From Anaerolineae bacterium (GTDB lineage Bacteria; Chloroflexota; Anaerolineae; Aggregatilineales; Phototrophicaceae): 64,000 nt of DNA. Position numbers and translations under genes: made by a program. Shown piece by piece: positions 1,677 to 17,064 of this stretch. The notes below the pieces were generated by a model. The model saw only the letters and a program-made list of their open reading frames with translations, was not told where the DNA came from and did not search any database. Each line of letters starts with the position of its first letter. The first letter of the stretch is position 1. The DNA lies in the NCBI GenBank assembly GCA_025055175.1, contig JANWYT010000019.1, forward strand, positions 1 to 64,000, given 5' to 3'.

Positions 1677-2006
1677 AGACACGCGCCCTCTCAGACAGGA
1701 CGTTATACAACCCAACCTGAGTCAACCTGTAACCGTAATCAGGGGGGCTTTTTGTGCTTTTTTATCCACGCCGAACCTACGAGAAATCGTTTTGTAACGT
1801 GCCGTAAAAATCTATAAAGGTTTTGGGCAAGTTGATTGAAGGCTCGCTGTCTCCTTCTATACTCAGATCATGAAAGAACAACGATTCCAGCAATTTTCTT
1901 TGGAATCAGCAGCGACGAATGTCTAGCATCATTAAGCCATTAAGGGGGAAGACTTGTACCACGTTCGCTCCAAATCGGCAGGATTATGTTTTTCCAGGAG
2001 TTCATG
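1677..2006. other. 330-bp intergenic region before the giant PKD gene
   Basis: No credible coding frame is present. The left part has a weak C/G-rich element followed by T-runs around 1750-1765, possibly a poor terminator for the SGNH gene. The middle is AT-rich and holds a promoter candidate at 1836-1863. The right end carries AGGAG at 1996-2000, which decides the start of the next gene. Confidence 0.5.
1836..1863 (+). promoter_or_regulatory. Candidate sigma70-type promoter of the giant PKD gene
   Basis: TTGAAG (1836-1841) is separated by 16 bp from TATACT (1858-1863). It sits about 140 bp before the coding start, leaving a long 5' leader. Assigned by consensus match only. Confidence 0.4.
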
Positions 2007-5000
2007 ATGTCTCAACACAATGCACCACTTCGCAGTAGTACGCAATATATCCTCATCGGCGCTGTCGCTTTTGTGGTGTTGCTGGGCGCACTGCTGGTTA
2101 TCTCCAACCAGGGAGGCCAGCGAGGCACAGCGACACAGGTTGCCATCGCTGCGACAGCCACCAACACTGACGCACCGCCGACGGCCACCCCAACTGAGGA
2201 GCAGATCAGCAACGTCACCGCCACCCTCGTCCCTGGCTTCCGCGATGGCAGCGAGCAGGAAGTACCCCCCGAAGAAGGCAAAGAAGGTGAGGAGCAACAC
2301 CCCCCACTCGCAGAAGACAACAACGTCCCGCCGCCCCCTGAGGACAACAACGTCCCGCCGCCCCCTGACAATGGCGACCTGGACGACGATGGAGACGGCA
2401 TCATCAATCGCAGCGACGCCTGTCCTAACGACAAGGATCGCGGCTTTGGCGTTTATGCCGATGGCTGTCCTGTCTTCGACCAGGACGGCGACGGCGTGGG
2501 CGACAATGTGGACGCCTGCCCCAATCAGGGCGATCGGGGCAACGGTGTGGACGGCAGCGGCTGCCCTAACCCGCCCCCGACACAAGAAGCTGAGCCTGTC
2601 TTCCTCAACTTCACCTTCAGCGCCGACGCCGAGGGGCTGAACCTGAGCGGCACAGCCCAAGTGAACACCAACTCCGCCAAGCCCGTCACCATCACCTGGG
2701 ACTTCGGCGATGGCAACGGAGCAAGCGGCAATGTCGTCAGCCACACCTACGCGCAGGGCGGTCAGTACATCGTGACCGTGACCGTCAGCGATGGTGACAT
2801 CACCGAGATTGACAGCCGAGAGATCATCGTCAGCGCGCCCCAGGTCAGCAGCTCGGCTTGCGTTATCACGGGCGCTACCATCACCAGCACCCCAGGCCAA
2901 CTGCCCGCGACAGTGAACTTCACAGCCAGCGGCCTGAACATCCAGGCCTTCAACTGGTTGTTTGGCAACGGCCAGAGCGCCAGTGGCGAGAGCGTCCAGG
3001 CCAACTATGCCGAGACAGGCGACTACACCTACACCTTGACCTGCGTTGTCGCCGATGACGTAGTGGGCAGTGGTGGCGTGCTGGGTGCGGACTACGTCTT
3101 CACTGAGACGATCAACATCCAGGCCACCTCAACCGACAGCGTGCGACTGATCGCCAGCTTCGTCATCGAACAGGGTTCACTGCAGGTAGGCCAGGCTGTC
3201 AACCTGACCAGCACCTCTCGCTTGGAAGGCGAAGGTGTGGAAGGCGCAACCCTGAGCTACGCTTGGATGGTCAGCGGAGCAGAGAGCTTCGGCGGCAGCG
3301 GCAGCAGCTTCAGCTTCACCCCGACCCAGGCGGGCGTCTACGACATCAGCCTGGTCGTCTCGGCAGTGGTCGGTGGCCGTACTCTGAGCGCGCCAGCTAG
3401 CGGCACGGTCGAAATCGTCCAAAACGTGGCTGCGCCCAACGTGCGCGTCATCCTGACTCCCAACAGCGGCAAGTTCCCGTTGAACGTGGTTGCTAGCCTG
3501 GAGAACACAGGCGGCACGATCGTCGGCTACAATTGGGACTTCGGCGGCGGCAGCGGCGGCGACGCCAGCAGCGCAGGCCCGCACAACCTGACCTTCGCAA
3601 CAGCGGGCAAGTACACCGTCAGCGTCAGCGTGGCTGGCCCCGGCGGCACAGCCAGCGCCAGCGCTGAAGTCGTCGTCCTGGAAGACCTCATCCCGCTTAA
3701 GGCCAGTTTCACTCTTCAGGCTGGTGAGCGCGTAGAAGGCACGGTGCAATACTGCTTCACCGACACTAGCGAGGGCGACGAGATTACCTCGTTTGACTGG
3801 TCGCTAGTCAACAAGACGGCAGGCCAGGACGTGAGCTTGCCTGCCTTCAGCGGTCGCGGCGGCAACTTCTGCGTCACCTTGACGGATGGCGTTTACCAGA
3901 TCAGCCTATCCGTCAGCAACCCTAGCGGCAAGCTGTCCTCTGCTTCGGCTCTGTTCGAGGTAGCTGAGGGCATTCGTGCGCCCAGAGTAGAGATCGTCGG
4001 CGCGCAGACGCAGGTCACCGTCGGCCAGACCATCACCTACAACGCCAGCTTCACAGGAGCGGTGCGCCAGTTCGTCTGGACGATCACAAGCGAGGGCGGC
4101 AGCGAATTCGCGACAAGCGAGCCAAGCCTGACCCGCACCTTCGACAAGGCAGGCAACTTCGTCATCAAGGTGCGCGCGATTGGCCCTGGCGGCTTCGCCG
4201 AGTCAGCCAGCGTGAACGTGACGGTCAGCTTCCCAACGATTAGCTGCCCCATCAGCGGCGCGACGGGCAACGTCAACTACAATGCGTCCACGACCTACAG
4301 CTACAGCGTCAACATCGCTCAGGCTCAGGCCGCAGGCCGTACTCTAACTTACGCCTGGACGATCAATGGTCAACCCGCCGGCAGCGGCACGTCCGTCACC
4401 CTGCCGCCCATCACTCAGCCTGGCACGACGACCATCAGCGTGCAAGTCTTGGCCGATGGCCAGGTGGTCTGCCAGCAGTCTGCCAGCGTGACCTTCGCCA
4501 TCCGCACCGTGACTTGCGACATCAGCGGCACGCTGACGCCGCGACTCAACCAGCAGGTGACGTATAGCAGCAGCAACGTCGCCAACCTAGATGGCCGCAC
4601 TGTCATCAGCACCGCTTGGGAGCTGAGCGGCTTGGCAGCACAGGGCAGCAACGGCAGGTACACCTTCACGACGCCTGGCACAGGCCAACTGACGATGACC
4701 CTAACGCTGAGCGACGACAGCACTTGCACGCGCACGCGCACGATCACCGTCAGCGAGAGCCAGTACGCCTGCCGCATGAGCCAGGGCGCACAGAACCAGA
4801 ACGTCTCGCTGTTTAGCAGCAGCAACTACCGCGCCGTGATCGACGGCACGACCAGCGGCCAGACCGTGAGCTACAACTGGACGGTGAACTGGAACGGCGG
4901 CACAGAAGGCAGCGGCAGCGCCAGCAGCGCTAGCTCCAGCCGCGATTTGACAGTTATCTTCGACAAGCCAGGCGCCACCTACAGCGTCAGCGCGGATATT

Positions 5001-8000
5001 TTCGTCAATGGCACGTTCATCTGCACCGTGACGCGCAGTGGCGTGGGCGTGGGCAGCACCGATCCTTTCACCTGCGATTTCAACGGCAACCTGAACGTCT
5101 TTCTGAATCAGCGAGTCACTTACAGCTCCACCATGAGCGGCGCTGGATCGCGCAAAGTCCAGAGCTACGCCTGGACACTGCAAGGCGAAGGCGTCAGCGA
5201 ATCAGGCGACGGGCAGAACTTCTCCCCCATCTTCCGCCGAGCGGGCAGCTACAACATCAGCTTCCAGGCAACGCTGGAGGGTGGCGCCACCTGCCCCATC
5301 AAGACCAAGACGGTGACGGTCAGCGAGAGCGAAGCCACCTGCCGCTTGAGTATCCCCGCCAACGTCCCTAACGACCGTAACGCATCCCTGAACGTCTCGG
5401 TCAACCCCAGTGGCGTCGTCAGCGGCTTCACCTGGACGTTCAACGGCAAGCAGTACAGCGGCCAAAACATCACCATCCCCGCCACTGCTCTGCTGGATGC
5501 CGGCTTGGGCGGCGCGATCAGCTTCACGGGTACGAGCAGCGATGGCCGCACTATCTGCGCCCTGGAAGCCCAGCTCAATATCGTCGAACGTCCGCTGGAA
5601 TGCCGTCTGAGCCTGCCTGAGTCGATCACTATTGGCGAAGCTTTCAGCGGCTCTGTGAATATCACCAACCTGAATGGCCGCCCTGTTACTTACCAGTGGA
5701 CGGTCAACGACCAGCCCGTCAGCAACAGCTCCAGCTTCAGCACCGTCTATCAGGGCGCTGAGGGGGACGTGACAGTGGCGCTGGTCGTCACCCCCCAACA
5801 GGGCCGGGGTTGCTCCGTCAGCAGGACTGTGAGGGCTAACGAGAAGGCCAGGATCAACGCCCTGGTGGATCGCCCCGTCGTACAGTTGGGTGGTTCGGTC
5901 ACTCTGAGCGCGCAGACGGTGGGCATTGACCGCAGCACCCTGACCTGGACTTACCCCGATGGCTCGCGCGAACGCAGCGAGACAGGCCGCTACCTCTTCG
6001 ACAGCATTCCCGAAGGCGGCAGCGCCGAGTTCATCGTCGAAGGTCGCAACGCCACCCTGGGAACGCTACGCGCCTCCGTGCGCGTGACGGTGGTCGGCGA
6101 GGCGCGCCTCAACGTCAGCTTCACAGCCAACCCCTGGCAGACGACCGTCGGCAACCAGATTTGCTTCACGGACACGACGACTTCTTCCAACGCGAACATC
6201 GCTCAATGGAAGTGGAGCTGGGACTTCGCAGGTCTGGGCAGCAGCGACGTTCAGAACCCCTGCTTCACCTTCCCCAGCGACGGCGACTACTCGGTGACGC
6301 TGGTCGTCAACGACGGTTTGCTGACCAACAACGCCCGCAACATCGTCCAACTCTTCAGCGTCCTCAGCAGCAGCGCCCGCTTCGACGTGCGCTACGAAGG
6401 TCGCGGACGAGTGTGCTTCATCCCCGACGCCGCGGGCGTGACAGTGACGGGCTGGGACTTCGGCAATGGCAGCAGCTCGGAAAGCGGCGGCGAAGTCTGC
6501 GCCACCTATGCAGAAGACGGCGAATACACCGTGACCATGCGCTTCCGCCAGGGCGAAGCTCAGAGCGTGGTGACGCGCCGCATCAAGATTCAGGGCGGCG
6601 GCTCGGTGGCCTTCCCTGTCGTCGAAGGCCGCGCCTTCTGTGCCGCCAATGGCGTAGCCACCTTCGTCCTGAGCAACATCGGCGCGGACATGACCCAGGA
6701 TGGCAGCGTCAGCGCCACCATCAACGGCCAGCCAGCCACCATCTCCGCCGACAGCTTCCGCTTGGCAGGCCGCACCCTGACGCAGACCTTCACTGTCAGC
6801 GGCGCTTTCGGCCAAACCGTGACCTTCGCGGCCAGCGGTGGCGGCATTAGCCCCATCACGGCAAATACGGTTTGCGCTGAACTGCCGCCGACCGAAGAAC
6901 TCACACCAGAGCCGACGGAACAGCCTACCGAGCTACCGACTGAAGAACCCACTTCGGAACCGACGCCTGAACCGACCGAAGAACCCACGTCCGAACCACT
7001 GGATGCAGAGCTTGGCTTACGCTGTACAGTGGAAGGCAGCTATATCGACGTGACCGTCTCCTTGCAGACCGTCCCTTACACGCTGGAAGTCGTCGATGGC
7101 GCAGCCACCGCTGAAGTCGTTCGGGGCGACCGCACCATCGGCCCGCTGAGCAACGGCGCTACCGTGACCGTCATCTACGGCAAGCAGACCTGGAAGCTGA
7201 CAGTAGAATGCGATGAAGACGACGAACCTCAGTTCAGTCTGCTGCTAGTCTGCCGCTCCGAAGGCAGCTTCGTAGAGATCGTGGCTGAAGACGAGGAAAG
7301 CTTTTACGGCGTGGAGATTATCGATGGCAACGCAGTCATCAAGATGGAATACATGGGCAGCCGCACCGTCGGCCCGCTGAGCAACGGCGCTACTGTGACC
7401 ATCTTCTTCGGCCGCGAACAAAGCCGCTCGTTGATAGTGAACTGCGAAGAACAGCCCACCGACGTGCCGCCCACCCAAGTGCTGCCCACCCAAGTGCCGC
7501 CCACCCAAGTGCCGCCGACGGCTACTCCCGTGACCGTCGCTAAAGCTGATCTTTGCGGCGAAGACATGGCCACGCGCGATGGCGACTTCCCGCTCATCAG
7601 CCTCGATCCGAGCCGCTGCGGCCCCGACCGTGAACGTGCCATCCCCAACTGGCGCTCTGTCATCAGTGGCGAAGCCGTGTGCGTCGACTGGCTAGCCTAC
7701 CACACCAACATCACCGGCGACTGGGAAATCTTCCGTTTGGGTGAACTGCCAGCCGAGCTGGGCTTCAATCCCGATGCTGACGTCAACATCTCCAAAGGGC
7801 GTGGACGCCGTATCAGCGACCTCGGTCCGGCTCGCTCACCCGACTCCAAGTTCATCGCCTTCTCTAGCAACCGCGACGGCAACTGGGAAGTCTACGTCGC
7901 CCCAGTAGATGGCACATTGGAAGATCAGCAGCGCGTCACTTACAACGACAACGCCATCGACATAGACCCCGTTTGGTCGCCTGACGGCACGAAGCTGGCC

Positions 8001-8777
8001 TACGAATCGACGGTCGATGGCAACTGGGAAATTCGCCTGGTTGACTTGATAACAGGCCAGAAGTTCCGCTTGACCTTCCACCCGTCCAACGACATCAACC
8101 CCTACTGGGGCAAAGACAGCACGAAGCTGTTGTTCCAGAGCGACCGTGAAGGTTCGTGGCAGATTTACGAGCTAGACATCAACGACGTCAATAACCCATC
8201 GGTGCGCCGACTGACCACTCCCGTTGAAGGTGTGGACTACCAAGATGCCCTGTTCAGCAACGACAACCTGCGCATCGTCATGCGCGCTGAGAGCGTGAAC
8301 GCCAACGGCGTCCTGCAAAGCGTGCTGTTCGTCCTTGACCTGGTGACGGGTGAACTCACCCAGATCAGCCCTGAGGGCGCTGACGCCCGCAACGCTTCTT
8401 GGTCGCCCAACGACAAGCTCATCGCCTACCAGTCCAACGAAGTCAGTAACACCTACGATATCTACGTTTACGAGGTAGAGACCAATCTGCGCCGTCTGCT
8501 GACGGACAATGAAGGCGAGAGCTTGGGTAACATCGACACCTCGCCCACGTGGATTTGCGAATCGGAGACCGTGGTCTTCACCAGCGATGCCATCGACGGC
8601 CAGAATGACATCTTCTCTGCGTCGGCTCGCCCGATTGATGGCCCACCGCTGGTGGTCGAGAGCGAAGCCAATCGCATGACGCAGGACAACGCCAACGACC
8701 GCGACGCACAAAACACGCCGTCCGAGGAGAACGCCAGCCGCAACGGTCAGGTGCCGCCCAAAGTGACAAGCAACTAG
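2007..8777 (+). CDS. Giant exported PKD-repeat protein with TSP3-like region and TolB/PD40-like propeller
   Basis: The product is about 2256 aa. The start at 2007 lies 6 bases after AGGAG; ATGs at 2004 and 1986 are in frame but worse placed. Residues about 11-34 are a membrane anchor or signal. An acidic Pro-rich linker follows, then two Asp-rich DxDGDGxxDxxDACP units (about 122-188) like thrombospondin type 3 calcium-binding repeats. A long array of Ig-like PKD domains (about 192-1530) shows WDFGDG and YTVTVTVSDG-type strands and many paired cysteines. A Glu-Pro-Thr linker, two copies of a small domain sharing GPLSNGATVT (about 1667-1815), and a Pro-Thr-Gln linker come next. The C-terminus (about 1890-2210) is a beta-propeller with repeated WSPDG/SNRDGNWE motifs like TolB/PD40. 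It is probably a surface adhesin or stalk protein; ligand unknown. Confidence 0.8.
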   Translation: MSQHNAPLRSSTQYILIGAVAFVVLLGALLVISNQGGQRGTATQVAIAATATNTDAPPTATPTEEQISNVTATLVPGFRDGSEQEVPPEEGKEGEEQHPPLAEDNNVPPPPEDNNVPPPPDNGDLDDDGDGIINRSDACPNDKDRGFGVYADGCPVFDQDGDGVGDNVDACPNQGDRGNGVDGSGCPNPPPTQEAEPVFLNFTFSADAEGLNLSGTAQVNTNSAKPVTITWDFGDGNGASGNVVSHTYAQGGQYIVTVTVSDGDITEIDSREIIVSAPQVSSSACVITGATITSTPGQLPATVNFTASGLNIQAFNWLFGNGQSASGESVQANYAETGDYTYTLTCVVADDVVGSGGVLGADYVFTETINIQATSTDSVRLIASFVIEQGSLQVGQAVNLTSTSRLEGEGVEGATLSYAWMVSGAESFGGSGSSFSFTPTQAGVYDISLVVSAVVGGRTLSAPASGTVEIVQNVAAPNVRVILTPNSGKFPLNVVASLENTGGTIVGYNWDFGGGSGGDASSAGPHNLTFATAGKYTVSVSVAGPGGTASASAEVVVLEDLIPLKASFTLQAGERVEGTVQYCFTDTSEGDEITSFDWSLVNKTAGQDVSLPAFSGRGGNFCVTLTDGVYQISLSVSNPSGKLSSASALFEVAEGIRAPRVEIVGAQTQVTVGQTITYNASFTGAVRQFVWTITSEGGSEFATSEPSLTRTFDKAGNFVIKVRAIGPGGFAESASVNVTVSFPTISCPISGATGNVNYNASTTYSYSVNIAQAQAAGRTLTYAWTINGQPAGSGTSVTLPPITQPGTTTISVQVLADGQVVCQQSASVTFAIRTVTCDISGTLTPRLNQQVTYSSSNVANLDGRTVISTAWELSGLAAQGSNGRYTFTTPGTGQLTMTLTLSDDSTCTRTRTITVSESQYACRMSQGAQNQNVSLFSSSNYRAVIDGTTSGQTVSYNWTVNWNGGTEGSGSASSASSSRDLTVIFDKPGATYSVSADIFVNGTFICTVTRSGVGVGSTDPFTCDFNGNLNVFLNQRVTYSSTMSGAGSRKVQSYAWTLQGEGVSESGDGQNFSPIFRRAGSYNISFQATLEGGATCPIKTKTVTVSESEATCRLSIPANVPNDRNASLNVSVNPSGVVSGFTWTFNGKQYSGQNITIPATALLDAGLGGAISFTGTSSDGRTICALEAQLNIVERPLECRLSLPESITIGEAFSGSVNITNLNGRPVTYQWTVNDQPVSNSSSFSTVYQGAEGDVTVALVVTPQQGRGCSVSRTVRANEKARINALVDRPVVQLGGSVTLSAQTVGIDRSTLTWTYPDGSRERSETGRYLFDSIPEGGSAEFIVEGRNATLGTLRASVRVTVVGEARLNVSFTANPWQTTVGNQICFTDTTTSSNANIAQWKWSWDFAGLGSSDVQNPCFTFPSDGDYSVTLVVNDGLLTNNARNIVQLFSVLSSSARFDVRYEGRGRVCFIPDAAGVTVTGWDFGNGSSSESGGEVCATYAEDGEYTVTMRFRQGEAQSVVTRRIKIQGGGSVAFPVVEGRAFCAANGVATFVLSNIGADMTQDGSVSATINGQPATISADSFRLAGRTLTQTFTVSGAFGQTVTFAASGGGISPITANTVCAELPPTEELTPEPTEQPTELPTEEPTSEPTPEPTEEPTSEPLDAELGLRCTVEGSYIDVTVSLQTVPYTLEVVDGAATAEVVRGDRTIGPLSNGATVTVIYGKQTWKLTVECDEDDEPQFSLLLVCRSEGSFVEIVAEDEESFYGVEIIDGNAVIKMEYMGSRTVGPLSNGATVTIFFGREQSRSLIVNCEEQPTDVPPTQVLPTQVPPTQVPPTATPVTVAKADLCGEDMATRDGDFPLISLDPSRCGPDRERAIPNWRSVISGEAVCVDWLAYHTNITGDWEIFRLGELPAELGFNPDADVNISKGRGRRISDLGPARSPDSKFIAFSSNRDGNWEVYVAPVDGTLEDQQRVTYNDNAIDIDPVWSPDGTKLAYESTVDGNWEIRLVDLITGQKFRLTFHPSNDINPYWGKDSTKLLFQSDREGSWQIYELDINDVNNPSVRRLTTPVEGVDYQDALFSNDNLRIVMRAESVNANGVLQSVLFVLDLVTGELTQISPEGADARNASWSPNDKLIAYQSNEVSNTYDIYVYEVETNLRRLLTDNEGESLGNIDTSPTWICESETVVFTSDAIDGQNDIFSASARPIDGPPLVVESEANRMTQDNANDRDAQNTPSEENASRNGQVPPKVTSN
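2316..2368 (+). repeat. Tandem 27-bp repeat encoding DNNVPPPPE units
   Basis: Two copies of a 26-bp block starting GACAACAACGTCCC lie at 2316-2341 and 2343-2368, identical at nucleotide level. They encode duplicated Asp-Asn-Asn-Val-Pro4 units in the linker after the membrane anchor. This is a recent in-frame duplication. Confidence 0.8.
7455..7514 (+). repeat. 15-bp tandem repeat encoding PPTQV units
   Basis: Four 15-bp units (7455-7469, 7470-7484, 7485-7499, 7500-7514) of the form CCCACCCAAGTGCCG, the first and second slightly diverged, encode a Pro-Pro-Thr-Gln-Val linker before the C-terminal propeller domain. Confidence 0.8.
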
Positions 8778-8820: not shown

Positions 8821-8858
8821 CAGCGTCAAGAGGATCGTGAACGATCCTCTTGACGCTG
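8821..8858 (+). terminator. Perfect 18-bp inverted repeat, second hairpin
   Basis: CAGCGTCAAGAGGATCGT is followed by GA and then its exact reverse complement. It follows the first hairpin by 10 bases. It may be a strong second terminator or an RNA 3'-end stabiliser; no T-tract is seen. Confidence 0.5.
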
Positions 8859-9000: not shown

Positions 9001-10263
9001 ATGAAACAACGTCGTTGGCCCTACACAGCGGTACTTGTACTCCTGGCAGTCGTCATCATCTCAATCGTCAGCCGCAACCCCTCAGAGCCGATCAAAATTG
9101 GGGTATTACATTCTCTCAGTGGGACGATGGCCTTCAGCGAAAGCTCTGTGGTAGACGCCACTCTGTTAGCCATCGAAGAAATCAACGCACGAGGTGGTTT
9201 GCTGGGCCGCCCGCTAGAAGCCATCGTCAGCGATGGCCGATCCGATTGGCAGGTCTTTGCACGACAGGCAGAAGCGCTCATTCGCGACGAAGGGGTGCAA
9301 GTAATCTTTGGTTGCTGGACTTCTGCCTGTCGTAAAACCGTCAAACCCGTCTTTGAAGCATACAATCACCTCCTGATCTATCCAGTGCAATACGAAGGCC
9401 TGGAAGCCTCGCCCAACATCGTCTACACTGGCGCCGCTCCCAACCAGCAAATCATCCCGGCTGTCCGCTGGGGAATAGAAAATTTGGGACGACGTGTCTT
9501 CCTGGTCGGCTCGGATTATGTATTTCCGCGCACTGCTAACGAGATTATTCGTCGCCAAGTGCAGGCATTAGAAGGCGAAATCGTAGGCGAAGCCTATCTA
9601 CTGCTGGGTGACACTGCTGTTCAGCCCATCATAGAAACTATCATCCAGACACAACCGGACTTCATCCTCAACACCATCAACGGTGACAGCAACATCGCCT
9701 TCTTCGATGGCCTGCGCGCTGCCAACATTCGTTCTGAAGACATCCCAACCCTATCGTTCAGCATCGCAGAGCCAGAGCTACAAACCTTGACCCTGGATAA
9801 CGTCGTCGGCGACTACGCTGCCTGGACATATTTTCAATCCATAGATAGGCCGGAAAATCAAGCCTTTGTGGAACGCTTTCACGCGCGCTACGGAGAGGAT
9901 CGCGTCATCAGTGATCCGATGGAAGCTGCCTATTTCGGGGTGTACTTGTGGTCACAGGCCGTCACCGATGCTGGCGACACCCATCCTCAGGTTGTGCGAC
10001 GTGCCATGCACCGCCAGAGCTTCAACGCTCCTCAGGGCGTGGTCTATGTCGATCCGCAGACGCAGCACGTGTGGAAGACCGTCTTAGTGGGACAAATTGG
10101 CGCAGATGGCCAGTTTAAGGTCGTCTGGAGTTCCGTTAATCCAGTGCGCCCCCTGCCCTACCTGGCTGCTTACCGCACCCAAGGCGAGTGGGATGCTTTC
10201 CTCCATAACCTGTATATGGGTTGGGGGCAGCGATGGGCCAACCCTGGCACAGAGGTGGAGTGA
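9001..10263 (+). CDS. ABC-type substrate-binding protein, amide/urea-binding-like (Peripla_BP_5), likely sensory
   Basis: The product is 420 aa. The ATG at 9001 gives a short basic start and a hydrophobic segment (about 8-23), an export signal or anchor. The mature part begins IKIGVLHSLSGTMA, continues with AIEEINARGGLLGRPLE, and has an IFGCWTSACRKTVKP segment and a YPVQYEG segment typical of UrtA/AmiC-type amide- or urea-binding proteins. The fold is the two-lobed type I periplasmic binding protein. Unlike urt operons, no permease or ATPase follows. The stop overlaps the start of a sensor kinase by one base (TGATG). I infer that ligand binding is read out by the kinase instead of feeding a transporter. 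The ligand is not determinable here. Confidence 0.8.
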   Translation: MKQRRWPYTAVLVLLAVVIISIVSRNPSEPIKIGVLHSLSGTMAFSESSVVDATLLAIEEINARGGLLGRPLEAIVSDGRSDWQVFARQAEALIRDEGVQVIFGCWTSACRKTVKPVFEAYNHLLIYPVQYEGLEASPNIVYTGAAPNQQIIPAVRWGIENLGRRVFLVGSDYVFPRTANEIIRRQVQALEGEIVGEAYLLLGDTAVQPIIETIIQTQPDFILNTINGDSNIAFFDGLRAANIRSEDIPTLSFSIAEPELQTLTLDNVVGDYAAWTYFQSIDRPENQAFVERFHARYGEDRVISDPMEAAYFGVYLWSQAVTDAGDTHPQVVRRAMHRQSFNAPQGVVYVDPQTQHVWKTVLVGQIGADGQFKVVWSSVNPVRPLPYLAAYRTQGEWDAFLHNLYMGWGQRWANPGTEVE

Positions 10264-12170
10264 TGAAGATACGCTGGCGCGATACTTCCATCCTAACGCG
10301 CCTGTTGCTAGGCTTCCTGGTGATCGGCTTGTTACCCCTGGGCATCAACACGCTCATCACCTTCAACAGTTGGCAAAATGCTCTACAAAGCGAAGTCGAG
10401 GCCAAGCTGCGAGCCATAGCAGATGGCAAAATCTCTCAAATCGAGACGTATGCTCTGGAACGCGCCCGTGACGTGGTAGCCCTCAGCCGCATTCCAACCA
10501 TCATCGAAGCCACCTTGCGTTTCAGCGACATTCTGCAAACGGCCGATTCCGACTCTGAGGCCTACAAGGACGTAGACCGCAGCATTCGTTCCCTGATGAA
10601 TCTCATCTTAGACGGTTCTGGCTACGACAACCTCATGCTCTTCTCCGCCGATGGCGTCCTACTCTTCTCCGTGCTACCGATGGCCAACGTTGGCCAAAAT
10701 TACATCCAGATGCACTTCGGCAATCCGCTAGCGCAAACGCTGGTCAACGCCCGCACACTGCTAGAAACGGAAATTTCCCGCCTGGTGATGGATGGTGAAC
10801 AAACCTATTCGTTCATCTCCGCGCCTATCTTCCTAGAGGGAGAAGTTGCTGGAATTGTGTCTATCCAGCTCAAAGGCAGCGACTTAATCGAAGTCATCAA
10901 CGACCGTGCCGGCCTGAGCCTGGGAGAGACCGGGGAGACGCTGGTGGGTTTCGTCCAAGATGGTGAAGCACTGTTCTCTTCTCCGTCTTCAACACAGCCT
11001 GGCTTCTCGCCACTCGCAGGCCTCAACGAGAACTTTCGTAACACTATGAATGCAGCACTACGAGGCATTCAAGGACGTGGGATTGCTCGCGACCACCACA
11101 ACCAAGAGGTCATCGCCGTTTGGAGCTATTTGCCTTCGCTGCGCTGGGGCATGATGGTCAAGATCGACACCCGCGAAGCTTTTGGCGCGATCGCGGCCCA
11201 GCGCAACTTCGTCTTGGGCTTGATGCTCTTAACGCTGGTCGCGCTGGTGGCTATCTCATACACCCTCGCCAATTCGCTCTCGCGACCCATCCAAAATCTG
11301 GTCAGTGCGACTGAAACCGTGGCCCAGGGCGTTTACGAAAACAAAATCGCTGTTCAGGGTACAGGCGAGATTCGTCAGTTGGTTGATGCTTTTGACCGCC
11401 TAATTCGCAACACCATTGCGCAGCGAACCCGCGAGCTGGAGGAGATAGCTCGCCAGGAACGCGAAAACAGCCGCTTGAAGGACGACTTCATGGCAGTCGT
11501 GAGCCATGAGCTGCGCACACCTTTGAACGCCATCATCGGTTTCATGGGCATTGTTCAGCAAAAGGCCAACTTAGACGAGAAGAACGCCTACCGCCTGGCG
11601 CGCGCGCGTGCCAACGCCGAACGCCTATTAGCCCTTATCAACGACATCCTAGACATCAGTCGCATTGAGTCTGGGAATATGGTGGTCTTCAAACAGCCGA
11701 TGGCTCTGGGAGCGTTCTTTGAGCGCTTGCACGGGCAAATGCAATCGCTAGCTGAGGAGAAGGGCCTGAGCTTCACTCTGAGCCTGGCCGAAGACCTACC
11801 TCCTACCATCTACAGTGACGAAGAACTGCTGACCAAGATTTTCGTCAATCTGGTTGGGAACGCCATCAAGTTCACCGATCAGGGTTTTGTTCGTATCACC
11901 GCCAAACGCGAAGCAACTTCTTGGACTGCCATTGTCCAGGACAGTGGGCCAGGCATACCACCTCACATGCACCAAGCCATCTTTGAGCGTTTCCGCCAGG
12001 TCGATAGCTCGCCTACCCGCCGTCACGGCGGAACCGGACTGGGGTTGTCTATCGTCAAGAGCCTTGTCTTATCTCTGAACGGCAGCATACGCTTGGAGAG
12101 CGCCTTAGGAGAGGGATCGAGTTTCATTGTTACTCTGCCGCTGGAGATGCAAAGCGACACATTGAAGTAG
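10263..12170 (+). CDS. Membrane sensor histidine kinase with Cache-like sensor domain and HAMP
   Basis: The product is 635 aa. The ATG at 10263 follows GAGGTGGAG. Membrane segments lie at about 11-33 and 316-340 and flank a 280-residue extracellular domain resembling dCache. HAMP follows (about 335-388), then HisKA with SHELRTPLNAIIGF (phospho-acceptor His415). The ATPase domain shows an N box (LVGNAIKFT), G1 (DSGPGIP) and G2 (GGTGLGLSIVK). It autophosphorylates and should pass phosphate to the adjacent receiver protein. The overlap with the binding-protein gene suggests the periplasmic protein acts as co-receptor, but the Cache-like domain could also bind ligand itself. There is no fused receiver. 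Confidence 0.9.
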   Translation: MKIRWRDTSILTRLLLGFLVIGLLPLGINTLITFNSWQNALQSEVEAKLRAIADGKISQIETYALERARDVVALSRIPTIIEATLRFSDILQTADSDSEAYKDVDRSIRSLMNLILDGSGYDNLMLFSADGVLLFSVLPMANVGQNYIQMHFGNPLAQTLVNARTLLETEISRLVMDGEQTYSFISAPIFLEGEVAGIVSIQLKGSDLIEVINDRAGLSLGETGETLVGFVQDGEALFSSPSSTQPGFSPLAGLNENFRNTMNAALRGIQGRGIARDHHNQEVIAVWSYLPSLRWGMMVKIDTREAFGAIAAQRNFVLGLMLLTLVALVAISYTLANSLSRPIQNLVSATETVAQGVYENKIAVQGTGEIRQLVDAFDRLIRNTIAQRTRELEEIARQERENSRLKDDFMAVVSHELRTPLNAIIGFMGIVQQKANLDEKNAYRLARARANAERLLALINDILDISRIESGNMVVFKQPMALGAFFERLHGQMQSLAEEKGLSFTLSLAEDLPPTIYSDEELLTKIFVNLVGNAIKFTDQGFVRITAKREATSWTAIVQDSGPGIPPHMHQAIFERFRQVDSSPTRRHGGTGLGLSIVKSLVLSLNGSIRLESALGEGSSFIVTLPLEMQSDTLK

Positions 12171-12187
12171 TCTGACAGGAGACTGTG

Positions 12188-12595
12188 ATGAGCTTGGATA
12201 GCTATTACGCGCTACTGGTTGGGAAAACTGTCTTAGTGGTGGACGATGAGCCAGATAGCTTGGAAATTGCCGAGACACTGCTCACTGACCTGGGCGTCAA
12301 AGTTCTCGTCGCCAACAATGGCAGGCAGGCGCTCATCTTGCTGGAAGACGAGCATCCCGACTACATCATCTCAGATTTGTCTATGCCCGTCATGTCAGGC
12401 TGGGATTTGATCGCTGCGCTCAAGCAGGATAGGCGCTTGATGGATATTCCCGTCTTCGCTCTGACGGCCCATGTCATGCCTGGAGACCGTAGCAAGGCTA
12501 TCGCTGCTGGCTTTCACAACTATTTGACGAAGCCTCTCAATCCCGACACCTTCGTCAACGACTTGCTGAGCTTGATCCAACAACTGCACACCTAG
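12188..12595 (+). CDS. Single-domain response regulator (CheY-like receiver)
   Basis: The product is 135 aa. The ATG at 12188 lies 5-6 bases after CAGGAGA; a GTG one codon upstream is in frame but less well placed. It consists only of a receiver: acidic pocket Asp19-Asp20-Glu21, phospho-acceptor Asp63 in ISDLSMP, and Lys115 in LTKPLN. No output domain follows, so it likely acts by protein-protein contact, as CheY or Spo0F-type intermediates do. It is 17 bases behind the histidine kinase and is its probable target. Confidence 0.9.
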   Translation: MSLDSYYALLVGKTVLVVDDEPDSLEIAETLLTDLGVKVLVANNGRQALILLEDEHPDYIISDLSMPVMSGWDLIAALKQDRRLMDIPVFALTAHVMPGDRSKAIAAGFHNYLTKPLNPDTFVNDLLSLIQQLHT

Positions 12596-12630: not shown

Positions 12631-13656
12631 CTACAGCACCCACTCAGCGATCAGGCGCAAGACGTTGATGTCGTATGTGCCGATGTTCAGCGTGCCAATG
12701 CCGCTCTCTCTCCACAGCTGCAAGCGGTCTTTAATGCGCGCCGCCGATCCAACCAGCGCCACTGCGTCCACCAGCTCGTTGGGGACGGCAGCCATCGCCT
12801 CAGCCTTTTTGCCTTCCAGATACAGATCTTGGATCAAGGTCGCTTCAGCTTCGAAGCCATAACGCACGGCCAACTCGTTGTAGAAATTCTTGCCTTTCGC
12901 GCCCATCCCACCGATATAGAGGGCCAGCATAGGCTTAAGCATGTTGCAGGCCACTTCAAAATCGTCGTCCATCGCTACGCTCACTGTCGGCGCAATATCG
13001 AATTGATCGGCAGTCTTGGCAGCTTTGGCCAGGCCCGCTTCGACATGTTCGTGGAAAGTCTCATGGTAGCGCTCTGGCGCGAAGAAAATGGGCAGCCAGC
13101 CGTCGGCAATTTCAGCGGCCAATTCAATGTTCTTCGGGCCGATAGCCGCGATATATATGGGAATATCGGGACGACTGTGCAGAATGCTCTTGAGCGGCTT
13201 GCCCAGTCCTGTCGCGTCCTCACCCCGATAGGGAATCTGATAATGCTCGCCGTCGAAGACTAGTGGTTCTTGGCGGGCAAAGATTTTGCGGACGATGGTC
13301 ACATACTCGCGAGTCTTGACCAGCGGCTTGCCGTAGGCCACGCCATGCCATCCCTCGGCCACCTGCGGGCCAGATAGGCCCAAACCCAGCAACATCCGGC
13401 CGCCGCTGAGCTGGTCAAGGGTCATGGCGGTCATGGCGGTCATGGCCGGGGTGCGCGCCGGCATTTGCATGATACCTGTGCCGAGCTTAATACGCTGTGT
13501 CAGCGCACCGATCCAAGCCAGCGGCGTGACAGCGTCGCTGCCATAGGCTTCGGAAGTCCACAACGCATGATAGCCTAGCCTGTCCGCTTCCAGGATCAGC
13601 TCCAGCGGCAGCTCTAACTTAGCCCCGGAATAGCTGATGATGAGTCCTAGCTTCAT
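12631..13656 (-). CDS. LLM-class (luciferase-like) F420-dependent oxidoreductase
   Basis: The product is 341 aa, normal for the family. The N-terminus [11 protein letters not shown] and residues near [59 protein letters not shown] and [24 protein letters not shown] are the usual TIM-barrel landmarks of luciferase-like F420-binding proteins. A GAGAGGG motif precedes the start on the minus strand. Members reduce or oxidise diverse substrates with the deazaflavin F420, or FMN in some branches; the substrate here is unknown. The gene is single, transcribed opposite to its neighbours, and convergent with the receiver gene. No F420 biosynthesis gene is in the window. Confidence 0.85.
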
Positions 13657-13834
13657 AGAAAAACCCTCTCAAAAAATGCTGCGGCTGAGCCACGAATTGA
13701 ATCTACGTTTAGTAGTGTGCCGCAGGCTGATCTTTCAGCGCAACAAGACTCACGGACGTCTCATGCGCGCCTTGACAAGCGTCCTAGCGAACTATTCAAT
13801 AAAGGGCCTGCTCATCTGCTGCGAAAGACAGTCT

Positions 13835-14557
13835 ATGCTGCACCGACTCGGACGCGCATTGCCACCACTGCTCCTGCTGGTAATCTTGCTGAGCTTGGGA
13901 GCAGCGCTGCTGCTGCGCTGGTTCGGCACAACATCGACCAGCAACGACCTCATCCGCGAGTTTCTGCTCAACCCCAATGTGCGCCCCCAACTGAGCAATC
14001 AGGCGCTGCGAGCCTGCCCCGACGCGCCCTTCATCCTGCCTAGCAGCGGCCTGATCGGCCTACTATGGGGAGACACAGCCCTGCCTTACAACACTCTGCG
14101 CCGCCACACTGGGATCGACGTCTTCGGGGACGGGCCGAGTGGCACAGTCCCCATCTTCGCAGTCTACGATGGCTATCTCACGCGCGCAGATGACTGGCTG
14201 AGTACCGTCATCATCCGCCACGATGATCCGCTACAGAGAGGCCGTACCATTTGGACGTACTACACACATATGGCCAGCCGCGACGGCACGCAGAGCTACA
14301 TTGTCGCAGACTATCCGCGCGGCACGCGCGAGCGCTTCGTAGCGCAAGGGACACTGCTGGGCTACCAGGGAGAATATGCTGGCCCAGGGGCAGCACCCAT
14401 CGCTATGCACCTCCACCTGAGCATTGTCACAAGCGAAGCTGACGGCAGCTTCCGAAACGAAGCCTTCATCGACAACACGCTCGATCCTTCGCCCTATTTC
14501 GGCTTGCCGCTGCGTTTAGAGGACGACCCGCCCCGTCCCATCCCTTGCCGACCCTGA
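13835..14557 (+). CDS. Membrane-anchored M23/LytM-like peptidase
   Basis: The product is 240 aa from ATG 13835. Earlier in-frame ATGs at 13763 and 13637 would place coding sequence in the promoter region or over the LLM gene. A hydrophobic anchor spans about residues 7-28. The C-terminal domain holds the LytM zinc-site elements: HTGIDVFG (His-x3-Asp), a further histidine in YYTHMAS, and HLHLSI (His-x-His). All metal-site residues of active M23 enzymes therefore seem present. It probably trims peptidoglycan or another extracellular peptide. No strong ribosome-binding site is visible at 13835, so the exact start is uncertain. Confidence 0.75.
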   Translation: MLHRLGRALPPLLLLVILLSLGAALLLRWFGTTSTSNDLIREFLLNPNVRPQLSNQALRACPDAPFILPSSGLIGLLWGDTALPYNTLRRHTGIDVFGDGPSGTVPIFAVYDGYLTRADDWLSTVIIRHDDPLQRGRTIWTYYTHMASRDGTQSYIVADYPRGTRERFVAQGTLLGYQGEYAGPGAAPIAMHLHLSIVTSEADGSFRNEAFIDNTLDPSPYFGLPLRLEDDPPRPIPCRP

Positions 14558-14767
14558 GTTGGCCTGAAGATGGGCAAGAGGATCTACACTCCCCTCTCGC
14601 ATCGGCCTCCGCTCTCTGGATCAATGGCCGTGCGCCTTCATCGGCTGGCAAGAAGAACGTCGTCGCCAATCGATAACACCTCTCACTGAGCCTGGTGAGC
14701 CTTCGGAGTTACAATAGAGAAAAGCGTTGATGTCTCATCAGAGAGCAACTCACTCAAAGGATTTTTT

Positions 14768-16465
14768 ATGCTCAGCGACATTGCTATCGCCCAAGCGGCA
14801 CAGCTCAAGCACATTCATGCCATCGCCGACGAGATGGGCCTGACGCCTGACGACGTGGATTTGTACGGCAGCCCCTACGTCGCCAAGCTGCGTCTGGAAG
14901 CGCTAGATAAACTCAAAGATCGTCCCAACGCCAAGTACATCGTGGTGACGGCCATCACGCCCACCCCGCTGGGAGAAGGGAAAACGACAACTTTGGTTGG
15001 ATTGGGCCAAGCGATGAAGCACATCGGCAAGCGAGCCATTATCGCGCTGCGCCAGCCCTCGCAAGGGCCAACTTTCGGCATCAAGGGCGGCGCTGCCGGC
15101 GGCGGCTATTCGCAGGTCGTCCCGATGGAGACTTTCAACCTGCACCTGACCGGCGACATCCACGCTGTGACGGCGGCCAACAATTTGCTGGCGGCCATGA
15201 TCGACAATCGCCTCATGCGCGGCAACCCGCTCAACATCGACATCGACAGCATCACCTGGAAGCGCGTGCTGGACGTGAACGATCGGGCCTTGCGCGAGAT
15301 CGTCATCGGGTTGGGCGGCAGAGAGAACGGCGTCCTGCGCCAGACGGGTTTCGACATTGCTGTCGCCAGCGAGGTCATGGCGATCTTGGCGCTGACGACT
15401 TCGCTCCAAGACATGCGCCAGCGCTTCGGGCGCATCGTCATCGGCCTCAGCCACGACAAAAAACCCATCACAGCGGAACAGATTGGCGCAGCGGGCGCAA
15501 TGACCGTCCTCATGCGCGAAGCTATTCGTCCTAATCTGCTACAAACCCTGGAGAATACGCCGGCCATCGTCCACGCTGGACCGTTCGCCAACATCGCACA
15601 TGGCAACAGCAGCATTCTAGCGGATATGTTCGGCATCAAGGCAGCAGACTACCTGCTGACCGAGGCCGGCTTTGGGGCAGACATCGGCGCAGAGAAGTTC
15701 TTCAACATCAAGTCGCGGGCCAGCGGCCTAGAGCCTAACGCAGCAGTGCTAGTCGTGACTGTGCGCGCGCTGAAGGCCCACTCTGGCCATTACCGCGTCG
15801 TAGCAGGCAGACCTCTCCCTGCGGAGATGCTGGAGCGTAACGTGAGAGATGTAGAGCTAGGCGCAGCCAATCTCATCAAGCAGATTGAGAACGTGGCCAT
15901 ACACGGCGTAACCCCAGTGGTGGCGATCAATTCTTTCGCCACCGATCACGCAGATGAAGTTGCGGCCATCCAGCGAATTGCCACCGAAGCCGGCGCGCTG
16001 GGCGCGGTCGTCGCGCGTCATCACGCCGAAGGCGGACGCGGCGCGGCTGAACTGGCAGAGCTAGTCGTGCAGGCCTGCGAACGTCCCAACAGCTTTCGCT
16101 TTCTCTATCCTCTAGAACAGCCACTCAAGGCCAAGATTGAGACGATTGCCACGCGCATTTACGGCGCAGGCAGCGTGAGCTACGAACCGATGGCCGAGCG
16201 CCAACTGCGCGATTACGAAGCCAACGGCTTTGGCCGTTTGCCAATTTGTATGGCCAAGACTCACCTGAGCTTGAGTCATGACCCTGCGCTCAAGGGCGCG
16301 CCCAAAGGCTTCACCCTGCCCATCCGCGAAGTGCGGGCCAGCGTCGGCGCTGGCTTTATCTATCCGCTGGTGGGCGAGATGCGCACCATGCCGGGCTTGC
16401 CCGACCACCCAGCAGCGGAAGCGGTCGACCTGGACGACGAAGGACGTGTCCTGGGCTTGTTTTAA
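14768..16465 (+). CDS. fhs: Formate-tetrahydrofolate ligase
   Basis: The product is 565 aa, the usual family length. It makes 10-formyltetrahydrofolate from formate, tetrahydrofolate and ATP in cytosolic one-carbon metabolism. The P-loop TPLGEGKTT lies at about residues 66-74, followed by the conserved GLGQAM, RQPSQGPTFGIKGGAAGGG and HAGPFANIAHGNSSI blocks. AAAGGA ends 6 bases before the ATG. No other folate gene is adjacent, so the context gives no hint about acetogenesis versus biosynthetic use; with a 2-oxoglutarate dehydrogenase nearby, a biosynthetic role is more likely. Its stop codon overlaps that of the convergent TetR gene. Confidence 0.97.
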   Translation: MLSDIAIAQAAQLKHIHAIADEMGLTPDDVDLYGSPYVAKLRLEALDKLKDRPNAKYIVVTAITPTPLGEGKTTTLVGLGQAMKHIGKRAIIALRQPSQGPTFGIKGGAAGGGYSQVVPMETFNLHLTGDIHAVTAANNLLAAMIDNRLMRGNPLNIDIDSITWKRVLDVNDRALREIVIGLGGRENGVLRQTGFDIAVASEVMAILALTTSLQDMRQRFGRIVIGLSHDKKPITAEQIGAAGAMTVLMREAIRPNLLQTLENTPAIVHAGPFANIAHGNSSILADMFGIKAADYLLTEAGFGADIGAEKFFNIKSRASGLEPNAAVLVVTVRALKAHSGHYRVVAGRPLPAEMLERNVRDVELGAANLIKQIENVAIHGVTPVVAINSFATDHADEVAAIQRIATEAGALGAVVARHHAEGGRGAAELAELVVQACERPNSFRFLYPLEQPLKAKIETIATRIYGAGSVSYEPMAERQLRDYEANGFGRLPICMAKTHLSLSHDPALKGAPKGFTLPIREVRASVGAGFIYPLVGEMRTMPGLPDHPAAEAVDLDDEGRVLGLF

Positions 16466-17064
16466 CTAGGTCGCAGCGCGCGCGTGAACAGCACGATCAC
16501 TTGATCCATGACGGCGGTCAGCTGCGGCGAATCGGCTGGCGGAGGGCCGCTATACTGGGGCAAGCCCATCAGCATAAACAGCAGGCCAGCCACCAATTCA
16601 GGCGACAAAACTGGGTCGATCTGGCCCTGAGCCTGGGCTTGCACTACTAAAGTCTGAACGCGCTGGTTGACGGCTTCGCGTTGTTCAATGAACTGTGGGT
16701 GCTGATTGTTGATGGCGACGAACACTTCTTGGTTGACGCCTTGCAGCATAGAGTCAGGTTGGTAGCGCTTGATGAGCATCATACGCAGAATACCCTGGAG
16801 CTGCTCCAGCGGCGAGAGTTGAGCTAGGCTATCAGCGTGGCTGTACAGCTCTTGCAGACCGCGCACCATCACATGAGCGATGAGGTCGTCCTTGCTCTTG
16901 AAGTGCTGATAGAGGGTGGGCTTGGAAATGCCCACCACTTCGGCCAGCTCGTCCATCTTCAGGTTGACGAAGCCCTGCTCGCGGATCAGGCGCGCAGCTT
17001 CCGCCAGAATCTCTTGCTCGCGGCGCTGCCATTCACGCTCTTTGAAGGATAAGCGTTGCGGCAT
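16462..17064 (-). CDS. TetR/AcrR family transcriptional regulator
   Basis: The product is 200 aa. The N-terminal helix-turn-helix domain (about residues 12-60) contains the typical LAEVVGISKPTLYQHFKSKDDLI. The C-terminal helical ligand domain ends in a hydrophobic stretch near LVAGLLFMLMG. It probably represses itself and perhaps an unlinked target, since its upstream neighbour on the other strand (the kinase-TPR gene) starts 270 bp away. A promoter with an overlapping inverted repeat lies just upstream (17099-17128). Ligand unknown. Confidence 0.9.
   Translation of the reverse strand: MPQRLSFKEREWQRREQEILAEAARLIREQGFVNLKMDELAEVVGISKPTLYQHFKSKDDLIAHVMVRGLQELYSHADSLAQLSPLEQLQGILRMMLIKRYQPDSMLQGVNQEVFVAINNQHPQFIEQREAVNQRVQTLVVQAQAQGQIDPVLSPELVAGLLFMLMGLPQYSGPPPADSPQLTAVMDQVIVLFTRALRPS

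Follow-up and report, generated by a model that had tools for sequence, protein, structure and literature searches.

A putative urea receptor related to transporter UrtA is encoded with a dCache-type sensor kinase in an Anaerolineae bacterium

Gene Order and Domain Architecture

The stretch of DNA analyzed here ("the window") comprises 64,000 nucleotides from an Anaerolineae bacterium (Chloroflexota; assembly GCA_025055175.1, contig JANWYT010000019.1, positions 1 to 64,000 of the forward strand) and contains three consecutive genes, here called A, B and C, which lie on the plus strand, as do all their features described below. Gene A (9001–10263; ATG at 9001, stop codon at 10261–10263) encodes a putative urea receptor protein of the UrtA type with 420 amino acids (PF13433, 531 bits), gene B (10263–12170) a sensor histidine kinase of 635 amino acids, and gene C (12188–12595; alternative start GTG at 12185) a lone receiver of 135 amino acids (PF00072, 91 bits). 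The ATG of gene B lies at 10263, and the two genes overlap by one base (TGATG). A binding-protein gene overlapping a kinase gene, with a lone receiver behind, was the arrangement given in the original prediction, and both coordinates and Pfam matches confirm it. The comparative analysis described below suggests that gene A, a paralogue of the transporter component UrtA, is a urea receptor anchored in the membrane, which would inform the gene B kinase via its dCache domain and, subsequently, gene C; we assign this reading a probability of roughly 0.78.

Against TIGR03407, the NCBI model of urea-binding proteins, gene A scores 491.9 bits, less than 1 bit short of the cut-off (492.75). Since receptor-type cyanobacterial relatives pass this cut-off, the score does not separate the receptor from the transporter kind. 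The AlphaFold2 (AF2) model of gene A has a predicted local distance difference test score (pLDDT) of 91.5, and its top fold match is the urea-binding protein of Caldicellulosiruptor (8tg1). Close to the N-terminus, a hydrophobic helix without cysteine (residues 6–24, 9016–9072, from a hydropathy scan; helix 6–23 in the AF2 model) probably acts as an uncleaved membrane anchor. Counts of lipoboxes and signal peptides by simple rules are too crude for contrasting receptors with transporters.

The gene B product has two predicted membrane helices (residues 10–28 and 317–335, hydropathy scan), between which a dCache fold is placed (10377–11153). The dCache_1 match of 32 bits lies under the Pfam cut-off of 45, and searching solved structures with the N-terminal sequence of the kinase yielded nothing meaningful; the AF2 model predicts a dCache domain in the N-terminal half (pLDDT 89), which matches solved dCache domains, e.g., PctA and PscC. 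Judging from this model, the extracytoplasmic domain would be able to receive gene A, and it is the proposed docking partner. A HAMP domain (11265–11411) and the HisKA and HATPase_c kinase core (11478–12146), both over the Pfam cut-off, follow, with no receiver attached.

Association with Signaling Genes

The relatives studied are the best 80 of 248 confirmed loci, with one genome per species, a selection in which the receptor clade described below is over-represented. A signaling protein is encoded next to, or fused with, the binding protein in 76 of these 80. Directly downstream on the same strand, 53 of the 80 have a dCache-type signaling gene, so that the pairing is far beyond chance; among these partners, Pfam finds dCache_1 in 51, HAMP in 50, HisKA in 45, HATPase_c in 43 and a receiver in 26. 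The co-occurrence of binding protein and kinase, on which the original prediction depended, is thus borne out, and urt genes are not regularly found beside close homologues: UrtB lies inside only five of the 80 loci, all from Alphaproteobacteria and each with a separate, permease-linked UrtA as well (urtA-urtB). In one of them (L060), the receptor gene is followed by genes for a hybrid kinase, an OmpR-type regulator in opposite orientation, the separate UrtA and two permeases.

The eight partners without HisKA include four dCache-HAMP proteins with another output instead of the kinase, i.e., a SpoIIE phosphatase (L031, L068, L073) or a guanylate/adenylate cyclase (L053), and four that are cut before the output (L048, L050, L055, L067). 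The other 27 relatives comprise 21 fusions to a Ser/Thr kinase, two loci in which the receptor gene precedes a chemoreceptor gene (L058, L088), one locus at a contig end and three with other context. In the fusions, the receptor is the C-terminal part and is preceded by a region matching a Ser/Thr kinase reference, which Pfam confirms in the six that were scanned. Six planctomycete sequences (L059, L069, L075, L084, L105, L107) are single chains of a Hanks-type kinase, a membrane helix and an UrtA-type receptor. In L057, L097 and L104, Pfam matches nothing but the binding domain; their long N-terminal extensions may stem from reading frames called too long.

The loci carry the labels of 15 phyla, at least one of which is doubtful. 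The label Pleurocapsa minor of L036 looks wrong; its contig may be the same as one of G670, a genome among the five relatives placed in the family of the window. L094, labeled Stygiobacter, groups with Magnetospirillum rows and, like one of these, has UrtB, urease and urea carboxylase over the cut-off; it is possible that L094 is a mixed assembly.

The Receptor Clade and Its C-Terminal Signature

In a tree of 144 aligned sequences (rows), from which duplicates and fragments had been dropped beforehand, a single branch (SH-aLRT 99, length 0.45) holds 85 receptor-type rows: 58 with a dCache-type partner, 21 Ser/Thr-kinase fusions, two chemoreceptor-linked rows, two from Myxococcota and two without context. 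The rows with a dCache-type partner, labeled as kinase rows, contain a few with a non-kinase output in the tree, pocket and signature counts. The clade takes in none of the 43 permease-linked rows and none of five further transporter-type rows, which have no permease match within their short flank. In a more careful tree, for which five long-branch rows were dropped and the rest was thinned, partly at random, to 84 rows, the 48 receptor rows again form one clade (bootstrap 95, SH-aLRT 100), which is present in 96% of 200 bootstrap trees. This second alignment was subject to a 60% column-fill rule, which is expected to drop the columns of the C-terminal signature described next.

Residues 394–407 of gene A form an ordered helix in the AF2 model, and together with this helix the alignment reveals a tryptophan signature at the C-terminal end, W397-x10-W408-x3-W412 (10180–10236). 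The motif W-x10-W-x3-W is present in 84 of the 85 rows of the receptor clade and in none of the 48 transporter-type rows, and it is also absent from the five outgroup rows and from four direct kinase fusions of cyanobacteria. A second set, drawn from Gammaproteobacteria and Planctomycetota, comprises 48 loci (the best loci among matches in 85 of 369 genomes; L192, L222 and L223 come from genomes already used, and most flanks end before a possible kinase core), 11 of which carry the signature: six have a dCache-type gene next to them, four are Ser/Thr-kinase fusions, and one (L195) lies behind an overlapping GGDEF-EAL gene. A permease is next to none of these 11, and the 37 loci without the signature comprise 31 with a permease, two with a dCache-type gene, two kinase fusions and two with unknown context.

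In the four cyanobacterial fusions (L169, L170, L171, L172), a histidine kinase is joined to an UrtA domain that occupies the very N-terminus, without a visible signal sequence; L171 is without any predicted membrane helix. L169, L170 and L172 fall among transporter UrtA in the tree, and kinase coupling therefore seems to have arisen more than once. Possibly, these four proteins are cytosolic urea sensors of separate origin.

Conservation of the Urea Pocket

The Prochlorococcus UrtA study (PMC10392092) names nine residues around urea. Motif matching with the aligned PDB sequences places these in gene A at W106, S108, Y127, Q130, E132, Y173, F175, N227 and S254 (span 9316–9762), and all nine are identical to those of Prochlorococcus. 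The same nine are identical across the 58 rows that have a dCache-type partner (gene A and 57 others); with 66 of 392 columns invariant among these rows, the probability of a nine-of-nine match by chance is 7e-8. In the 21 Ser/Thr-kinase fusions, the pocket Asn is replaced by Val in one row; among the 43 permease-linked rows, eight of the places are each conserved in 41 or more and the Phe place in 35. AmiC, in contrast, differs at five places (those of W106, Q130, F175, N227 and S254). Given this identity, the ligand of gene A is probably urea. Of the amide- or urea-binding, UrtA/AmiC-like protein proposed originally, the UrtA side and a urea-type pocket remain, and an amide-type pocket was rejected on the comparison with AmiC.

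At position 253, adjoining the pocket residue Ser254, the 81 receptors counted uniformly have Phe, and 40 of 46 transporter-type rows have Val.

Co-variation of Receptor and Sensor Domain

Among 30 related pairs that include a kinase core, the identity distances of gene A correlate with those of the dCache region when the kinase core is held constant (partial correlation 0.70, permutation p = 0.0002), but not with those of the kinase core given the dCache region (−0.02).

Urea Transport and Urea Use in Receptor Genomes

The genome of the window (G000; 3.38 Mb, 89% complete) contains no second strong match to PF13433, no UrtB over the cut-off (best score 140.6 against 250.3 bits), no urease match and no urea carboxylase over the cut-off. 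Among 400 Chloroflexota genomes, 24 had a match, which identity and context divide into four receptor-type (the window included), 13 transporter-type and seven distant ones. In 21 Chloroflexota genomes, UrtB over the cut-off accompanies the transporter form in 12 of 13 cases and the receptor form in none of eight, and precisely the same figures apply to urease. Within the order of the window, 18 of 154 genomes have a match, one each; six of these are receptor-type (the window and five others), and UrtB is the next gene in all six examined of the remaining 12. PF02653 proved too broad as a marker of urea permeases.

The absence of urease does not hold for the whole family, since the genome of L036 (G429) has urease. 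Across 53 receptor genomes, urease is found in 16 and urea carboxylase over the cut-off in two, both within those 16, and UrtB is present in 10 of 50 and in none of three others. Matches to TIGR02712 occur in 51 of the 53, but all except two are below the cut-off and mostly confined, among the matches listed, to the first ~440 of 1201 positions; they were rejected as urea carboxylase and read as other biotin carboxylases. Hence both enzymes are below the cut-off in 37 of the 53 genomes, many of which are drafts, including that of the window and the named strains Allochromatium warmingii (L046, G438) and Tautonia sociabilis (L088, G464). In these organisms urea would be a cue without a known use, or else the ligand is something very like urea.

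Gene C and the Diversity of Outputs

Gene C consists of a receiver domain only, without an output domain, as in CheY-type single-domain regulators. The third gene of the locus is not conserved: five relatives from the family of the window encode a hybrid kinase of 862–906 amino acids with a receiver, followed by a REC-kinase gene (by match in four, and in L189 by a reading frame of 364 amino acids). Gene C was considered as a split-off receiver of these hybrid kinases or as a shortened third gene; its identity to both is 23–33% and it remains unplaced in a tree, so neither origin was retained. The CheY-like architecture without a DNA-binding domain that had been proposed fits gene C itself, but a conserved CheY-like output is not supported; the outputs of relatives vary and comprise REC-kinases, REC-GGDEF proteins, OmpR-type regulators, chemoreceptors, SpoIIE phosphatases, a cyclase and Ser/Thr kinases. 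In L005, a REC-GGDEF gene precedes the receptor gene, and at the same place in L057 (Candidatus Chloroploca) there is a gene of the same length that matches a receiver. In the gammaproteobacterium L195, the GGDEF-EAL gene precedes and overlaps the receptor gene.

Neighboring Genes

Five neighboring genes were scanned with Pfam (1986–8777, and four in 12631–17064), and neither an ABC permease nor an ATPase was found among them, in agreement with the original prediction that no such transporter part is present. They encode a surface-type protein with PKD and PD40 domains, a luciferase-like monooxygenase, a protein without a family, a formate-THF ligase and a TetR regulator. The upstream gene at 1986–8777 is very long (2263 amino acids); it encodes repeated PKD domains and, toward the end, PD40 propeller repeats. 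The gap between this gene and gene A holds a perfect 38-base inverted repeat (8821–8858, no strand assigned), read directly from the sequence, which might mark the end of the upstream transcript.

Discussion

The mechanism that we propose begins outside the membrane, where gene A would close on urea. The closed protein, perhaps via its C-terminal tryptophan helix, might then engage the dCache domain of gene B and thereby change the activity of the kinase, and phosphate would pass from gene B to gene C and onward to a further output. That the binding protein is a co-receptor of the kinase, as originally suggested, is well supported by comparison: its separate clade, the signaling context of 76 of 80 relatives, the co-variation with the dCache region and the lack of UrtB over the cut-off argue for a receptor rather than a transporter part, and from these data ligand binding and signaling can be put forward as predictions.

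Several observations weigh against this interpretation. One row of the receptor clade, L092, is without the signature; conversely, L083 carries it next to a TamB-like gene that is not a signaling gene. In the second set, L197 and L198 have a dCache-type gene yet no signature. Of the 80 best relatives, L097 and L104 lack a recognized partner. Nearly all transporter UrtA rows share the pocket residues, which are thus uninformative on signaling. Moreover, the co-variation test is limited to 30 related pairs and identity distances, and the 37 genomes without either urea enzyme over the cut-off leave a predicted urea signal without an obvious use.

The same co-receptor mechanism could serve formamide, acetamide or another small amide-like compound, an unlikely though not negligible alternative. 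In its favor are those 37 genomes and the uniform Phe253 of receptors, opposed to Val in most transporter-type rows, and PMC3098086 cautions that systems of this sort might act on related amides. On the other hand, all nine pocket positions are unchanged whereas the amide binder AmiC differs at five, and the receptor gene is a neighbor of urtA-urtB in five loci from Alphaproteobacteria. That gene A belongs, as an ordinary UrtA, to a scattered urea transporter and stands beside a kinase by accident is barely credible in spite of its high similarity to UrtA and a TIGR03407 score so close to the cut-off, and was rejected given the separate clade, the context of its relatives and the absence of UrtB over the cut-off from its own, 89% complete genome.

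It is also conceivable, but quite improbable, that the kinase senses a ligand of its own through the dCache domain and that gene A merely delivers or buffers a solute nearby. Indeed, dCache domains usually bind their ligands directly, and the best fold matches of the gene B domain include amino-acid and uric-acid receptors. However, an [RK]xW[YF]-type signature of amino-acid dCache domains is found in none of 57 partner sequences, gene B included, and the six Ser/Thr-kinase fusions scanned show no dCache domain.

In its fold, family and nine pocket residues, gene A resembles UrtA (TIGR03407; 7s6e, 7s6f, 8hic, 8tg1), but it differs by its separate clade, the C-terminal tryptophan helix, the predicted anchor, the kinase partner and the lack of UrtB over the cut-off. 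AmiC, the amide receptor of the amidase operon (1pea, 1qo0), has a similar fold and is an example of a related protein used for regulation, although its pocket is different at five of the nine places and it acts on AmiR, not on a kinase. According to PMC5908839, a periplasmic binding protein signals with a histidine kinase in AioX/AioS, TorT/TorS and LuxP/LuxQ, and gene A is likewise encoded with a membrane kinase and no permease of its own beside it. The binding-protein families and ligands of those systems are different, and the family of gene A is UrtA-related, carries 15 phylum labels and has further types of partner. In the GlnH/GlnX/PknG system of Corynebacterium, a binding protein is thought to control a Ser/Thr kinase (PMC9769921); these are three separate proteins, whereas the planctomycete forms are single-chain fusions. 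The word urea is absent from the text of PMC11032199, on planctomycete kinases. No description of an UrtA-type co-receptor for a kinase or of a urea-sensing two-component system was found in the literature searched (without preprints and most subscription journals). Co-receptors composed of a binding protein and a kinase are already known, and the UrtA-related version appears to be new relative to that literature.

Taken further, and put forward tentatively, with some doubt prevailing, the data might reflect an ancient and widely spread family of urea receptors that diverged from transporter UrtA and is recognizable by a C-terminal tryptophan helix. Via a dCache partner or by direct fusion, its members would be linked to a range of outputs (histidine kinases, chemoreceptors, SpoIIE phosphatases, cyclases, c-di-GMP enzymes and Hanks-type Ser/Thr kinases), and most carriers would read urea as a signal that they cannot use. 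As the receptors score at or near the cut-off of the transporter model, genomes may list them as parts of urea uptake systems; in the sets examined, the short C-terminal motif is diagnostic and tells receptors from transporter UrtA. The planctomycete fusions would represent one-chain Ser/Thr receptor kinases with a predicted ligand, which makes them directly testable. Should urea prove to be the ligand, it would be monitored by many bacteria that lack urease, which would change the view of urea as a signal in soils, in waters and near animals.

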